Below, in pieces: positions 19,268 through 39,436 of a DNA stretch of 40,651 nucleotides. Positions within the stretch are counted from its first letter, which is position 1. The number at the start of each line of letters is the position of its first letter. The stretch covers positions 1 through 40,651 of the forward strand of contig JAMCWE010000009.1 in assembly GCA_023475265.1 (NCBI GenBank), in the 5' to 3' direction. A model generated the notes under the pieces. The model had not been told where the DNA came from. It saw nothing but the letters and a program-made list of their open reading frames with translations, and ran no database searches. Source of the stretch: Bacteroidota bacterium. GTDB lineage: Bacteria > Bacteroidota > Ignavibacteria > Ignavibacteriales > Ignavibacteriaceae. Both the position numbers and the translations under genes were made by a program.

Positions 19268-19633
19268 TCAATCTCTTGTTTTTGTTTTTTCTAAAATCGC
19301 TCCGAATATCTTCATAAGTTCAGTTGATTCTTGAATAAGTTTTGATCTTTGTTGTTCCAAATCCATATTAATTGAAATTAATCCTAACCAGTATCTCGAC
19401 TCTTTTGATTCCTTTCTACAAATTTTTATTCTAAATGCAAAATCCTTTTTGCTAATCGACTCATTTGCTTCTATATAATTAGCACCAACAGAACCAGCTG
19501 ATCTTACTAGCTGTTTCCCAATCTCATTATTTGTTACAGAGCTTGGTAAATTATTTATAAGCTTTATGACATTTTCAGTAAAATGAAATGTTCGGTCTTC
19601 CAAATCATAATGTTTAGTAGTTAAAGTTTCCAA
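19268..19633 (-). CDS. Four-helix-bundle protein, S23/IVS family (copy 1)
   Basis: This 121-residue protein has the family signatures LEDRTFHFTENVIKLINNLP, IGKQLVRSAGSVGANYIEA and FRIKICRKESKESRYWL. Proteins of this family occur in 23S rRNA intervening sequences and share a fold with Avd of diversity-generating retroelements; their function is unknown. The start codon reads TTG at 19633, but that T is also the last base of an Illumina adapter match. The natural start is probably ATG (ATG GAA ACT) with its first base replaced. The gene interrupts the pyrimidine operon and is bracketed by heptad repeats. Confidence 0.85.
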   Translation of the reverse strand: METLTTKHYDLEDRTFHFTENVIKLINNLPSSVTNNEIGKQLVRSAGSVGANYIEANESISKKDFAFRIKICRKESKESRYWLGLISINMDLEQQRSKLIQESTELMKIFGAILEKTKTRD

Positions 19634-19653
19634 GATCGGAAGAGCGTCGTGTA
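19633..19653 (+). other. Illumina adapter sequence left in the assembly
   Basis: All 21 bases match the start of the Illumina TruSeq adapter, beginning AGATCGGAAGAGC and continuing GTCGTGTA. This is a technical sequence and not part of the organism. The join of 19632 to 19654 is therefore not proven, although the operon on both sides makes sense. Confidence 0.95.
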
Positions 19654-22277: not shown

Positions 22278-23513
22278 TTAAAATATTTTCATAATTTTAT
22301 AAACCCTATCATGCGGCCTAACTAGCTCGCTGCAAGAAAATGTAATTCTGTCTCCTTTCACAGCTGTTTCAACAAATGTATTTTCATTTTGGATTTCATC
22401 CGGTACTAAGCTGACGACCCCGGACGTTGGACCTATTATCAGAAGATTATCTTTTAATGAAATCTTTCCCGACTCAAGTTCTACATAAACGATCTGATTT
22501 TTTTTATAATAGTTTATTACCTTGCCGACAAATTCTTTACGAGTTGTTGCCTTGCTTCCGTATATGTCCGCATAATCTTCTGAACTCGGCTTGCCGAAAT
22601 AAAATCCTGATGAGAAACCTCTGTTATAAACTTCTTCTAGTTCTTTCAGCAATTCCTTTTTGATTTCGGCAGTTAGTTTTTTTTCAAAATATAAATCGAT
22701 TGCACGGCGGTATACTGATACAACTTTTGCAACATATTCGGGACTCCTTTTTCTTCCCTCAATTTTAAATGAATCTATCCCGGCTTCTATCAGCTTATCA
22801 ATAAATTCAATTGTACAAAGATCTTTCGCCGACAAAACATAATCTTCGCCAAGAACCATTGATTTTCCGGTTGTCGTATCTTTCACTTCATATTCTCTTC
22901 GGCATGGTTGAATGCATTCACCTTTGTTAGCGCTTGGACCAAAGAGATGATGGCTCATAAAGCACCTGCCGCTTACTGCAATACACATCGCGCCGTGAAT
23001 AAAAGCTTCAATTTCCAAATCGGTTAATGCTCTTATCTTTTTTATTTCTTCAAGGGAACATTCACGTGCTAAAACAATTCTTACTGCACCAAGCTGTTTG
23101 TACAGATCAGCGCTGAGAGAATTTGAAACCGAACCTTGAGTTGAAATGCAAAACGGCATTTCATGTTTTCTGCAGATTTGAGTAACTGCTAAATCCCAGC
23201 AAATAATCCTATCGACTCCGGCAATTTTTGAAGCTGATACAATTTCTTCAACATCTTTCAATTCTTCTTCATACACTATTGTGTTAAGCGTAAGATAAGT
23301 TTTAATATTCCTTTCTTTACACATCCTGACAATTTCCGGAAGATCTTCAATAGTAAAGTTCGCAGCTTTAGCCCGCATATTCAGCTTACCAACACCAAAA
23401 TAAACTGCGTCTGCACCGGCATTTATTGCAGTTGAAAGCATTGTCCAATCACCCGCGGGTGACATTAATTCTGGTTGTTGGCGGTTGGTTGTTGGTTGTT
23501 GATCAATCATCAT
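22278..23513 (-). CDS. U32-family peptidase-like protein (YegQ/TrhP type)
   Basis: The protein is about 411 residues from the ATG at 23511-23513. It has the U32 N-terminal barrel signature ELMSPAGDWTMLSTAINAGADAVYFG and the family core SGRCFMSHHLFGPSANKGECIQPCRREY, with the cysteines that probably hold an Fe-S cluster. E. coli members of this family (YegQ/TrhP, RlhA) are needed for RNA hydroxylation, so a tRNA or rRNA modification role is more likely than proteolysis. The first residues after the start, DQQPTTNRQQP, are encoded by a heptad repeat tract and are not conserved. The start overlaps the stop of the upstream four-helix-bundle gene (ATGATGATTGA). Confidence 0.85.
   Translation of the reverse strand: MMIDQQPTTNRQQPELMSPAGDWTMLSTAINAGADAVYFGVGKLNMRAKAANFTIEDLPEIVRMCKERNIKTYLTLNTIVYEEELKDVEEIVSASKIAGVDRIICWDLAVTQICRKHEMPFCISTQGSVSNSLSADLYKQLGAVRIVLARECSLEEIKKIRALTDLEIEAFIHGAMCIAVSGRCFMSHHLFGPSANKGECIQPCRREYEVKDTTTGKSMVLGEDYVLSAKDLCTIEFIDKLIEAGIDSFKIEGRKRSPEYVAKVVSVYRRAIDLYFEKKLTAEIKKELLKELEEVYNRGFSSGFYFGKPSSEDYADIYGSKATTRKEFVGKVINYYKKNQIVYVELESGKISLKDNLLIIGPTSGVVSLVPDEIQNENTFVETAVKGDRITFSCSELVRPHDRVYKIMKIF
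23473..23500. repeat. Heptad repeat tract left of four-helix-bundle gene 2
   Basis: Four units on the plus strand: GGTTGTT, GGCGGTT, GGTTGTT, GGTTGTT. It lies inside the 5' end of the U32 coding region and 2 nt from the stop of the small gene. The 18 nt from 23471 match the reverse complement of 23955-23972 at 15 positions. Confidence 0.75.
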
Positions 23514-23889
23514 AGTTTTTGTTATTGATTCTATCGTCAAGATAATTAATATAAGCGCTTAGTTTTGGCAGTAATTCTTCTAAAGTTATTTTTATATTAT
23601 CAATTTCTTCTTTTTTCAATAAATTTCTTTTATAAGCTCTTCTTAACCAATGTTTTGTCTCAAACAATGAACCTCGTGCAATTTTGCAATATCTTTTAAA
23701 ATCCATTTCACTTCCTTTACCGGAACCCTCAGCAATATTAGCACCTATGCTGTCTGAAGAATTTACTATTTGTTCCCCGACGGTTTCTTTAGAAAATTTA
23801 TCCCAAGTCAAAACGCAGTCCCATATATAATCTGCCAACCTTTCAGCCAATTGATATATTTCGAGGTTTTCAAATCTTGACTTGGACAT
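23503..23889 (-). CDS. Four-helix-bundle protein, S23/IVS family (copy 2)
   Basis: This 128-residue protein has the second common form of the family: FENLEIYQLAERLADYIWD, then SSDSIGANIAEGSGKGSEMDFKRYCKIARGSLFETKHWL. The motif ANIAEGSG is the family hallmark. It starts at ATG 23889, with the C-terminal charged tail NNKNYDD ending at a TGA that overlaps the U32 start. It stands between U32 and pepT, with inverted heptad tracts on both sides. Function unknown. Confidence 0.88.
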   Translation of the reverse strand: MSKSRFENLEIYQLAERLADYIWDCVLTWDKFSKETVGEQIVNSSDSIGANIAEGSGKGSEMDFKRYCKIARGSLFETKHWLRRAYKRNLLKKEEIDNIKITLEELLPKLSAYINYLDDRINNKNYDD

Positions 23890-26888: not shown

Positions 26889-27938
26889 CTAGTGTACCGC
26901 CACTAACGCTTCTTTACACTTCATAACATTAGCCATAATAGTTTCAGCGTCTTTAGTCCATTTGAATATTTTAGGTTTCTCATTGTGTGCCTGTAAGAAA
27001 TCCCTAATAGCTGTTTCTAATTCTTTAACTGATCTGAATACTCCCCTTCGAATTCTTTTATCCGTAATAACACCAAAGAACCTTTCAACCATGTTCAACC
27101 AGGATGATGATGTCGGAATAAAATGGAAATTGAACCTTGGATGTTTTTCCAGCCATCTTTTAACCGATTCTGTTTTATGGGTTCCATAGTTATCCATAAT
27201 AAGATGTAAATCCTTATCCTTTGGAGTTTGTTTATCTATCAGATTTAAGAAGCTTATAAATTCTTTGTGTGTATGCTTACTGTAACATTCTCCTATTACT
27301 TTTCCTTCAAGAGTATTTAATGCCGCAAATAGAGAAGTGGTACCATGTCTTTTATAATCGTGTGTCATTGTTCCTGCTCTCCCTTTCTTCATTGGTAAAG
27401 AAGGCTGTGTTCTGTCTAATGCCTGTATTTGACTCTTTTCATCAACGCAAAAGACAAGTGCCTTATCCGGCGGATTTAGATATAGCCCTACTACATCGGT
27501 TACCTTTTCCACAAATTTCGGGTCATTACTTATCTTAAACTTTTTTACTAAATGTGGTCTTAGATTATATTTCTTCCATACCCTTTGAATAGTCATCTTA
27601 GAGACACCGTGTTCGGCTGCCAATGTTCTTGTTGACCAATGAGTTGCTGCTCGGGGTTTGGTATGTAATGTGGCTTCCACTATTTTATTTTCTTTCTCTT
27701 GATCTATCTTCGGTTTTCTGCCCGGTCTACTTGCATCTTTTAACAGTCCGATTATACCTTCTTCTTTATAACGTCTTATCCATAAGTCTACCGTCGGGCG
27801 ACTTGTAGATACTTCCTTTGCTATTGTTACTTTGTTTTTACCTTCTTTATATCTTAATATTATTGAGGCTCTTAGTACTACTTTTTGTGCAGTGTTTTTT
27901 CCTTTTACTAATTTTTTAAGTCGTTCTATCTCTGTCAT
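26889..27938 (-). CDS. IS630-family transposase
   Basis: This 349-residue transposase has an N-terminal helix-turn-helix half (LRYKEGKNKVTIAKEVSTSRPTVDLWIRRY, then a second homeodomain-like part with RPGRKPKI). The DDE catalytic domain has Asp in VFCVDEKSQ, Asp in LHLIMDNYGTHKT and Glu in SSWLNMVERFFG. All three acidic residues are present and the frame is intact. The stop codon TAG lies at the very end of the element and uses the flanking TA. Confidence 0.94.
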   Translation of the reverse strand: MTEIERLKKLVKGKNTAQKVVLRASIILRYKEGKNKVTIAKEVSTSRPTVDLWIRRYKEEGIIGLLKDASRPGRKPKIDQEKENKIVEATLHTKPRAATHWSTRTLAAEHGVSKMTIQRVWKKYNLRPHLVKKFKISNDPKFVEKVTDVVGLYLNPPDKALVFCVDEKSQIQALDRTQPSLPMKKGRAGTMTHDYKRHGTTSLFAALNTLEGKVIGECYSKHTHKEFISFLNLIDKQTPKDKDLHLIMDNYGTHKTESVKRWLEKHPRFNFHFIPTSSSWLNMVERFFGVITDKRIRRGVFRSVKELETAIRDFLQAHNEKPKIFKWTKDAETIMANVMKCKEALVAVH

Positions 27939-32017: not shown

Positions 32018-32204
32018 ATATTTATTATACTAAATTACAAAGAAAACGTAAGAAATAAGAGTTAAGAAATCGCGCACTGAAGACTGTTCTTTAAATGATC
32101 CGTATTCTGCCAAAAGTTGAAAATTTGTTTTTCTTAATCCACAAATCCTTAACATTTAAATTTTGTTTATATAAACGACTTTTATTTTTTAGCCAATTAC
32201 ATGA
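32018..32204. other. Gene-free intergenic stretch upstream of the DegT gene
   Basis: No credible coding frame. It is AT-rich and should contain the promoter of the minus-strand DegT gene. It leads directly into the long palindrome at 32205. Confidence 0.4.
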
Positions 32205-32360
32205 CCCCGATAGGGGAATGTTGCACAACTTCTCTGTGGAACTCCGCGCCTTCTCTGCGTCTCTCCGTGTAACTGATTTTTTAAGGAATTACACGGAGTT
32301 CCGCGGAGAATTCACGAGATACACTGAGAAAAATAGGTTGCGCGACATTCTCTATATGGG
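32205..32360. repeat. Long imperfect palindrome beside a REP-type transposase remnant
   Basis: Outer arms GAATGTTGCACAAC (32216-32229) and GTTGCGCGACATTC (32337-32350) pair at 12 of 14; inner arms CTCCGTGTAA (32263-32272) and TTACACGGAG (32289-32298) pair perfectly. A small hairpin CCCCGATAGGGG lies at the left end (32205-32216). It ends 10 bp from the stop of the transposase fragment, the usual place for a mobilised REP element. Confidence 0.82.
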
Positions 32361-32370
32361 TGATATAATA

Positions 32371-32772
32371 TTAATCCCACACATATCTCTCATCGTTTCG
32401 GATTTCAAATTCATTTAGAAATTTTCTTAACTCATCCTGATAATTCTGCTTTGAATGATGTTCTTTCTGATTTAAAATATAATTTTTTACATTTTCAACT
32501 TCTGAATTTCCAACAGAAAATATTCCATATCCATTTTGCCACGCAAATTTAGTAAGTATTTTGTTCTTAGTCTTAATCCATTTGGTTGATCCACGTTTGA
32601 TTTCTCCTATTACATTCGCAATAGATAAATTTCGCGAAAGTCTGCAAAGAATATGTACGTGATCTGCAATTCTATTAATAATAGTAATTACGGGTAAATA
32701 TTCTTTTCTATTGTCATATTCGCGAAGGCGTTGCCTTCGCCTTATATATTTTTCCCCTTCTGGGAATAAGAA
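32371..32772 (-). pseudogene. Truncated IS200/REP-associated tyrosine transposase (Y1 family)
   Basis: A frame of 133 codons without a usable start ends at TAA 32371-32373. It reads DHVHILCRLSRNLSIANVI, then WIKTKNKILTKFAWQNGYGIFSV, VKNYILNQKEHHSKQ and ends NDERYVWD. HVH is the HUH metal motif, and the Tyr in NYILNQKEHH would be the catalytic one. About 40 residues normally preceding HVH are missing or replaced; a hairpin (32722-32740) lies in that part. The frame is absent from simple ORF lists because it has no start codon. Confidence 0.85.
32722..32740. repeat. Short perfect hairpin in the transposase remnant
   Basis: GCGAAGGC (32722-32729) and GCCTTCGC (32733-32740) with loop GTT. It is GC-rich in AT-rich surroundings and may be an inserted REP-like element. 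Confidence 0.7.
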
Positions 32773-32900
32773 TTATAAAATATTGAATTAGTAGCTATTC
32801 ATCTGACTTTGGCTAGCTATAACAAACTCTGCAATTGTTTTAATTATTATAAACAAAATCCTTTTCTATTTCTTTAAAGCTTTTTGCGAGAAGGTCCTTT

Positions 32901-33395
32901 TCAGAGACAATAGGATTTTCTACTTTCCAAATCAATTTTTAGATCCGGATCGTTATAAAGAATTGCTCTTTCATCTTCCTTGTTGTAATATGCGGTACAT
33001 TTATAATGAAAGACAGCTTCATCTGATAATACAGAAAAGCCATGAGCGAATCCCGGCGGTATCCAAAGCTGAGTATGATTTTCTTCCGATAATTCAATTG
33101 AAAAATATTTTCCGAATGTGGGCGAGTTAAACCTAATATCAACCACAACATCAAGGACATTTCCCTTTATTACCTGGCAAAGCTTACCCTGCGCTTTTTC
33201 GCCGGCTTGATAATGCAGCCCTCTAACCGTTCCTCTTTTCGATTTTGAAATATTATCCTGCACAAAGTTGAATGAAACGCCATACGCTTCATACTTCTTA
33301 AAGCTGAATGATTCAAAAAAATATCCGCGGCTGTCTCCGAATACATCCGGAGTTATTACTAATAAATCAGATATAAATGTTTTTTCTATTTTCAT
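32901..33395 (-). CDS. rfbC: dTDP-4-dehydrorhamnose 3,5-epimerase, C-terminus frameshifted
   Basis: This cupin enzyme epimerises dTDP-4-keto-6-deoxyglucose at C3 and C5. It has FGDSRGYFFESF, the catalytic His in VRGLHYQ, and WIPPGFAHGFSVLSD. The frame stops after 164 residues with the odd tail ESRKSYCL. Removing one base from the three-A run at 32929-32931 (plus strand) restores WKVENPIVSEKDLLAKSF and continues to a stop at 32840, giving 184 residues, the normal length. The lost C-terminal part is mostly structural, so the short form may be impaired. Confidence 0.92.
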   Translation of the reverse strand: MKIEKTFISDLLVITPDVFGDSRGYFFESFSFKKYEAYGVSFNFVQDNISKSKRGTVRGLHYQAGEKAQGKLCQVIKGNVLDVVVDIRFNSPTFGKYFSIELSEENHTQLWIPPGFAHGFSVLSDEAVFHYKCTAYYNKEDERAILYNDPDLKIDLESRKSYCL

Positions 33396-33408
33396 ATTCT
33401 TTGTTTTT

Positions 33409-33471
33409 CTCTGCGTCTTTGTGTCCTTGCGGTAAAAAATTTATTAACCGCAAAGACGCTAAGTCGCAAAG
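33409..33471. repeat. CTTTGCG-type imperfect palindrome between rfbA and rfbC
   Basis: Arms 33409-33433 and 33447-33471 (25 nt each) pair at 20 of 25 positions, with an AT-rich 13-nt loop. It begins 3 nt after the rfbA stop codon (minus strand) and fills the gap to the rfbC start. Confidence 0.85.
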
Positions 33472-39070: not shown

Positions 39071-39427
39071 TCACCCACCATTCCCCCTTGCTGTTTTTCT
39101 TGAAGCAATAAATATCGAGGCTAGTTCGTGAGCTTCTTTTCTTAAAAGTTCAACTTTTTCTTTAACCTGTAAATTTTCATCTATTATAAACTCTAGCCAG
39201 AATTCACTCTCATCTGATTCTTCGATTACAATACTTATTTTAGAAATAAAAGCAGCTTTACTTTGTGCAAGGCATGTAGCGCGGTAATTTGCTGCTACTG
39301 AAGTGCTGCATCTGATCAATTGCCCCTTAATATGATTACCTAGATAAGTAGTAGGAAGTATAACAGCCAACTTAACACAATCATGAGCAAACTTCTTAGT
39401 ACGTAATATTAATTCCCTTTTATCCAT
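39071..39427 (-). CDS. Four-helix-bundle protein, S23/IVS family (copy 3)
   Basis: From ATG 39427 the protein is 118 residues: MDKRELILRTKKFAHDCVKL, then IKGQLIRCSTSVAANYRATC, ISIVIEESDESEFWL, ending with a charged tail. VAANYRA and EESDESEFWL are family marks, and this is closer to copy 1 than to copy 2. The ATG at 39436 would add three residues. It lies between two dense repeat regions, upstream of the capsule-export gene at 38593. No ribosome-binding site is obvious. Confidence 0.87.
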   Translation of the reverse strand: MDKRELILRTKKFAHDCVKLAVILPTTYLGNHIKGQLIRCSTSVAANYRATCLAQSKAAFISKISIVIEESDESEFWLEFIIDENLQVKEKVELLRKEAHELASIFIASRKTARGNGG

Positions 39428-39436
39428 ACTTCTCAA

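Follow-up and report, generated by a model that had tools for sequence, protein, structure and literature searches.

We found that a 40,651-nucleotide stretch of DNA (hereafter the window; contig JAMCWE010000009.1 of assembly GCA_023475265.1, positions 1 to 40,651, forward strand) from a Bacteroidota bacterium of the family Ignavibacteriaceae carries, at positions 32,205 to 32,772, a broken gene for a Y1-family (HUH) transposase together with the remains of hairpin modules. Our data strongly suggest that this is a dead locus of TnpA-Y1 subclass 1.2, the intact form of which would be a gene standing between two mirror-image modules of three hairpins each, A1-B-A2. By computation we detected the fragment, its family signature, the modules that bracket the gene, compensatory pairing within them, matching of the two flanks within a locus, and dispersal of the modules in the host genome. 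Genes of subclass 1.2 frequently stand between hairpin modules that match each other, a trait absent from the published account of the subclass (Quentin et al. 2018, PMC6006769; cited here and below for the sections consulted). We further propose, while leaning slightly against it, that subclass 1.2 is an unrecognised hairpin-bound system, with mirror-image three-hairpin modules of its own, a gene-specific foot, protein and module that change together across phyla, and doublets resembling REPINs (paired repetitive extragenic palindromic [REP] sequences) that arise in some genomes through Y1 activity. The window itself is a decayed example, and the interest of the locus comes from its relatives.

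The transposase fragment and its family

The initial annotation of the window, made from the sequence without database searches, described a broken transposase of REP type with HVH and the catalytic Tyr region. A broken Y1 gene is indeed present. The minus-strand open frame at 32374-32772 matches Pfam PF01797 (Y1_Tnp) over positions 42-121 of the 121-position profile (60.8 bits, E=1.8e-16, cut-off 23) and is followed by a stop codon at 32371-32373. Approximately 48 N-terminal residues are absent, and roughly 29 codons at the start of the open frame translate hairpin-module DNA. We regard the fragment as a pseudogene because the sole in-frame ATG, GTG or TTG, codon 131 of 133, is third from the end and not usable as a start. 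The gene and its motifs lie as follows.

32371..32685, minus strand: gene assigned to TnpA-Y1 subclass 1.2, 3' two thirds including the stop codon (PF01797 match; identity to the intact protein P0001, below)
32653..32664, minus strand: HUH motif DHVH
32479..32481, minus strand: codon of the catalytic Tyr of YILNQKEHH (Y---Q--HH)

Subclass 1.2 is defined by DH[IV]H, WQ and Y---Q--HH (PMC6006769). The fragment also contains WQ, and DHVH is found in the fragment and the intact copy alike. We therefore place the fragment in subclass 1.2 by its motif signature. The REP-type label did not hold: the class 2 proteins (TnpAREP, or RAYT, the REP-associated tyrosine transposases) carry Y---NP where the fragment has Y---Q--HH, and the NCBIfam models rank IS200 above REP_Tyr_transpos. 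The fragment scored 42 bits with IS200 (NF033573) and 21 bits with REP_Tyr_transpos (NF047646), both below the cut-offs of 55 and 80, while the intact copy reached 63.9 bits with NF033573, a model that passes its cut-off of 55 here and that cannot tell subclass 1.1 from 1.2, and 21.6 bits with NF047646 (cut-off 80).

Subclass 1.2 is reported mostly from Cyanobacteria and Bacteroidetes, with 'no' as its REP entry and terminal IS200 structures generally absent (PMC6006769). Since it was defined in 2018 as Y1 relatives without insertion sequence (IS) ends or REP, its role was left open. The flanks described below depart from this published trait; membership in subclass 1.2 is not excluded by structured flanks, because PMC6006769 reports an absence and not a sequence criterion. 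A genome scan using the intact protein yielded 74 related loci, among which Y...Q..HH was found in 64 and [DN]H[VIL]H in 67. According to their records these loci come from Bacteroidetes, Planctomycetes, Verrucomicrobia, Acidobacteria and others, many of them metagenome-assembled genomes (MAGs).

An intact copy and the hairpin modules of the window

The initial annotation had called for an intact transposase elsewhere in the genome, and we found one: P0001, a Y1 protein of 151 amino acids encoded at C201:22755-23210, to which the window fragment is 62% identical across P0001 residues 49-152. The host genome holds five P0001 matches which, besides P0001 itself and among the matches listed, include this fragment and proteins of 39% and 34% identity. 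A second near-identical gene copy was not found in the assembly, a draft that may collapse identical copies. The flanks of P0001 carry many hairpins, but these belong to a three-hairpin family different from the long palindrome that the initial annotation had pointed to. Four modules, oriented + - + -, precede the gene, and a + module follows.

We aligned 16 modules from the host genome and from a related locus, L058, in one orientation, and trained a covariance model, R1. The window was searched with R1 with filters off; its own module was left out of the training set, which included other modules of the host genome. The search returned one module at the 5' end of the fragment, which the initial annotation had passed over, with the next best match in the window at E=1.9 only. 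Blastn also matches this module to contig C177 (82% over 64 nt). Together with what we read by eye on the other side of the gene, the locus contains the following features.

32669..32768, plus strand: gene-upstream module in the orientation A1-B-A2 (R1, 51.2 bits, E=2.5e-7)
32691..32702, no strand assigned: half of hairpin A1 of the upstream module, then the junction with the fragment (by eye, against the L003 and C177 modules)
32722..32740, no strand assigned: hairpin B of the upstream module, GCGAAGGC-aac-GCCTTCGC, whole
32752..32766, no strand assigned: hairpin A2 of the upstream module, TTCCC-agaag-GGGAA, whole
32350..32368, minus strand: remnant of the gene-downstream module, namely TTAT, 3 nt and a decayed A1 (A1 remnant 32350-32362; by eye, aligned to L003 after the stop codon and compared with L058)
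32219..32347, no strand assigned: palindromic repeat of 129 bp from another family, between A1 and A2 at the expected place of hairpin B
32205..32216, no strand assigned: A2 hairpin belonging to the gene-downstream module, with the sequence CCCC-GATA-GGGG (by eye)

In the upstream module, A1 is broken where the 5' part of the gene is absent. On the downstream side, CCCCTATTGGGG takes the role of A2 in L058; the window A2 lies at +155 from the stop codon against a usual position of about +79, approximately 76 nt farther out (hand arithmetic). In the intact state, the hairpins of each module would follow one another as A1, B and A2 with growing distance from the gene, and a short conserved foot would precede A1 (TTAT, 3 nt, A1 in this lineage). 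The window copy lacks the 5' third of the gene and half of the A1 on that side and keeps upstream B and A2. On the other side A1 has decayed, and the 129-bp repeat, unrelated to the modules, stands between A1 and A2 instead of B.

The long palindrome beside the gene

The fragment had been described as lying beside a 150-bp palindrome, on which a REP-type transposase might act. The strong fold is real: as single-stranded DNA, 32195-32370 has a folding energy of -35 kcal/mol, whereas 200 shuffled versions average -16.3 +/- 2.9 (z -6.5, none of the 200 as good). When the window was scanned in stretches of 160 nt taken every 20 nt, the strongest fold fell in this region. The palindrome itself proved to be a composite, with a 129-bp core at 32219-32347 and outer ends that we read by eye as what remains of the 3' module of the transposase. 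The core has the arms TGTTGCACAAC and GTTGCGCGACA. We compared it with five copies from genome G005, one each from G049, G002 and G075, one from contig C265 of the host genome and half a copy from contig C82; further matches were left unaligned. The left arm TGTTGCACAAC is common to all five aligned G005 copies and a similar right arm occurs in G049 and G002, while the arms were not seen in the aligned G075, C265 and C82 copies. We took the element as approximately 129 bp because the arms recur in the G005, G049 and G002 copies.

That a REP-type transposase acts on this adjacent palindrome appears very improbable to us. The palindrome lies 23 bp from the fragment stop codon, its fold is very strong, and Y1 proteins of related classes do act on palindromes (PMC8266576, sections consulted). 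However, neither its motif nor its NCBIfam score places the protein in class 2, the genes of the subclass 1.2 group bear other hairpins, and nothing better than E=0.56 to the 129-bp palindrome was found in 111 other Y1 loci (two of which are repeat entries for the same place). The host genome has one other good copy, on C265, a contig without a PF01797 match, and the half copy on C82 lies approximately 29 kb from the Y1 gene of that contig. The five G005 copies, taken without reference to the positions of Y1 genes in that genome, count neither way. We therefore rejected the 129-bp palindrome as the cognate substrate: the link between it and the fragment is not supported, and a link between the fragment and another hairpin family is.

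We give equally little credence to the idea that the long palindrome replaced hairpin B functionally, so that the locus was a working chimera before the gene broke. The position of the palindrome between A1 and A2 fits such a replacement, and the displaced A2 fits approximately 129 bp in place of approximately 55; against this, the 111 other loci contain nothing similar and the adjoining A1 is decayed. In a separate observation, the G005 copies of the 129-bp family (L177-L181) lie, by eye, between arms such as CCTGCCTGACGGCAGAG and CTCTGCCGTCAGGCAGG, so that one palindrome encloses another. Palindromic repeats may often insert into hairpins in these genomes.

Flanks of related loci

We read the arrangement of the flanks in the first 47 of the 74 loci plus L003, nine of them as sequence. 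A recurrent plan emerged, in which a small hairpin A1 lies past the stop codon, a larger hairpin B follows about 37 nt on and a small A2 about 30 nt farther, with the mirror image of this order before the start codon. Not every locus shows the plan. For flank counts, 10 of the 74 loci were dropped (internal stops or short) and 2 more lacked upstream sequence. In this first set, 150-nt flanks folded with z<-2 in 36/62 cases upstream and 33/64 downstream, compared with 6/230 control windows at 900 or 1500 nt and 4/64 windows inside the gene. In a second set (33 loci, from which 2 that lack the motif and 3 that had been used before were taken out) the same threshold was passed by 18/28 upstream and 12/27 downstream flanks and by 9/102 distant windows. 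A strict A-B-A triad was found in 9/62 upstream and 13/64 downstream flanks of the first set, compared with 2/580 controls.

The two flanks of a locus also resemble each other. When each upstream flank was compared with the reverse-complemented downstream flank, the median score was 15 within a locus and 8 between loci, and 50 of 89 loci lay above the 95th percentile (p=4e-25). The foot behaves similarly: its tetranucleotide is equal at three or four of four places on both sides in 15 of the 18 loci with matching stems, compared with 68 of 306 between-locus pairs. This comparison began with 93 loci, of which 42 have a gene-proximal hairpin on both sides and 18 have stems that agree; some of these are near relatives, and the hairpin thresholds were set after the data had been seen.

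Pairing and dispersal of the modules

Within the 16-module alignment, hairpin B shows double changes at all 8 of its pairs. Across the whole structure there are 42 double-change cells (35 in B) and 2 one-sided cells, with none of 500 shuffles as high; the cells tally related sequences and not independent events. Because double changes dominate and one-sided changes such as G-C to G-U are rare, the modules appear to fit DNA palindromes better than RNA structures.

Searching the host genome with R1 (150 of 4688 candidates scored) gave at least 52 modules at E<=0.01, which group into 28 clusters and lie on 24 contigs. Thirty-two modules form inverted doublets, 12 pairs in the order + - spaced 11-12 nt apart and 4 pairs in the order - + spaced 16-17 nt apart. 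Of these 52 modules 30 were read, and 26 of them have TTAT at positions -7 to -4 relative to A1, with outer contexts that differ. Among 97 genomes (the host and 96 relatives), 14 contain modules, counts that are lower bounds given that 44 candidates per genome were scored under stricter filters. Modules occur in all 5 genomes with a close transposase, the host included, and in 9 of 92 without one; once the training genomes are removed, the fractions are 3/3 and 9/92. Here a close transposase means a P0001 match below 1e-45, a line drawn after seeing the data, with the next genome at 1.6e-37. Two of the genomes without a close subclass 1.2 gene, G009 (11 modules) and G019 (9 modules), hold either modules that are orphans or modules whose gene is missing.

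If the protein works as IS200/IS605 and REP transposases do, it would most likely bind hairpin A1 of its own module in single-stranded form, and the foot tetranucleotide would aid the choice of the cut. The enzyme might then cut and rejoin single strands bounded by modules, a process by which modules could spread as inverted doublets. Spread of the modules by an active Y1 enzyme is possible, as is spread by a DDE enzyme that moves longer composites containing them.

Evidence against the modules as Y1 partners and rival explanations

Several of our results weigh against a subclass 1.2 gene with its own three-hairpin modules. The downstream remnants in the window were not detected by R1 (E=2.0 nearby) and were read by eye only. 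The strict triad fails in most flanks of the first set and, in the second set with L003 included, was found in 1/29 upstream and 2/27 downstream flanks, compared with 0/162 controls. Modules also occur in nine genomes that lack a close transposase. In Labilibaculum (L061) and in a planctomycete (L093), DNA matches to the module are confined to the transposase locus (3 in the former and 2 in the latter), and we accordingly rejected dispersal in every host. At least 11 of the 28 clusters in the host genome sit inside longer composites with terminal repeats of their own, which a DDE transposase could have moved. Finally, intergenic gaps of the same loci fold well too (12/48). Flanks of the first set exceed these gaps (p=0.0009 upstream, p=0.006 downstream), and so do upstream flanks of the second set (p=0.001), but its downstream flanks do not (12/27, p=0.12). 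Because the gaps also fold well, comparing flanks with distant windows overstates the contrast. We therefore rank that fold test below the symmetry tests, and part of the flank-fold signal may be what any gap might show.

The folding gaps are what one would expect if the flanking hairpins were ordinary transcription terminators or RNA structures. We consider this improbable in view of the mirror symmetry and the matching across the two sides of the gene, the excess of double over one-sided changes, and the dispersal of the modules as inverted doublets.

The composites bear on a different explanation, in which the A-B-A modules are cargo of elements resembling miniature inverted-repeat transposable elements (MITEs), spread by a DDE transposase, and the Y1 gene is merely among them. 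Two multi-copy composites carry module doublets between terminal repeats, with short flanks like direct repeats; one kind ends in TGAAGTTACGCAAA (7 read) and the other in TAAGCGTCAAC (4 read). The flanks of the 7 TGAAGTTACGCAAA copies are shared over 4-7 nt, a figure without a chance control, and those of the 4 TAAGCGTCAAC copies are direct repeats of 7-11 nt by eye. Four composites of 286-290 bp (L191, L192, L193 and L194, on C114, C73, C131 and C95) are 94-98% identical, run from TAAGCGTCAAC to GTTGACGC and hold a module pair without a gene, by eye inside short hairpins. Furthermore, the TGAAGTTACGCAAA ends, present at 17 sites in the host genome, adjoin at L247 (C56:1812) and L254 (C68:43608) another palindrome by eye, ACCTTGAAGGTC..GACCTTCAAGGT. 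Palindromic interiors of two or more kinds may thus lie between such ends. Such cargo would leave unexplained that subclass 1.2 genes in several phyla are bracketed by matching modules of their own. It would also leave aside the modules at C119, C167 and C177:4664-5171, which by eye have neither kind of end, and a brief look at approximately 140 nt around five solitary TGAAGTTACGCAAA sites gave no DDE gene bearing such ends. We regard DDE-driven spread of cargo as unlikely on balance, while taking it more seriously than any of the other alternatives, and retain the reading of a dead subclass 1.2 locus whose gene stood between its own modules.

Other features of the window

The window contains an exact AGATCGGAAGAGCGTCGTGTA at 19633-19653 (plus strand), at the start of a PF05635 gene. 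We take this to be an Illumina adapter sequence, and its presence in the contig suggests an untrimmed adapter or a false join. Three PF05635 genes (23S rRNA-IVP / four-helix-bundle) lie in this one 40-kb contig, at 19268-19633, 23503-23889 and 39071-39436 (minus strand). A DDE_3 transposase gene with helix-turn-helix (HTH) domains, presumably IS630-like, occupies 26889-27938 (minus strand). Beyond the transposase locus lies an rfbC-like gene at 32901-33395; at 32828-32940 (minus strand) its 3' end appears frameshifted near a T run, with the tail SFKEIEKDFV in another frame, and DNA of relatives is 79-96% identical to parts of 32828-32900. A second palindrome, of the CTTTGCG type, adjoins this gene at 33407-33470.

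Comparison with known systems

We found no hairpin association of subclass 1.2 in the open-access literature, where the term 'subclass 1.2' occurs, among the matches listed, only in PMC6006769; the supplementary figures of Quentin et al. may hold more. The proteins studied here resemble TnpA-Y1 subclass 1.2 as described in that source in DH[IV]H, WQ and Y---Q--HH, in a length of approximately 150 amino acids, in a conserved C-terminus (YVWD here) and in their occurrence in Bacteroidetes. They differ from that description in their flanks, roughly half of which have strong structure and correspond between the two sides of the gene, and in that the records add Planctomycetes, Verrucomicrobia and Acidobacteria, many as MAGs.

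REPtrons (TnpAREP/RAYT with REP and REPIN; PMC8266576 and PMC3733652, sections consulted) share with our loci inverted palindromes that bracket the gene, a tetranucleotide near the foot, agreement of foot and hairpin within a locus, and inverted doublets across the host genome. In contrast, the protein here is class 1, with Y---Q in place of Y---NP, GT[AG]G does not occur among the 18 foot pairs, and the module is a three-hairpin unit of approximately 90 nt, with at least 52 copies in the host genome and no dispersal in two other genomes. As with REP and REPIN sequences, the palindromes of the host genome are dispersed, occur as inverted doublets and stand beside the gene, which is not so in L061 and L093. 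TIRYTs and TIRtrons (Di Nocera 2013, PMC3733652, sections consulted) likewise have inverted repeats flanking a Y1 gene, but they are class 2, subclasses 2.1, 2.2 and 2.5 (PMC6006769).

The IS200/IS605 elements (IS608, ISDra2) are related in sequence through the solved TnpA chains 2a6m and 2vhg (E approximately 5e-4) and also have subterminal hairpins with a guide-like tetranucleotide, whereas our loci have three hairpins per side and the host assembly has no second near-identical gene copy. If subclass 1.2 genes are framed by cognate three-hairpin modules, the subclass becomes open to the assays of oligonucleotide binding and cleavage that have served for IS608 and TnpAREP. In that case, subclass 1.2 would be a class 1 counterpart of the REP systems, nearer in sequence to insertion sequence transposases than the known REP enzymes are.
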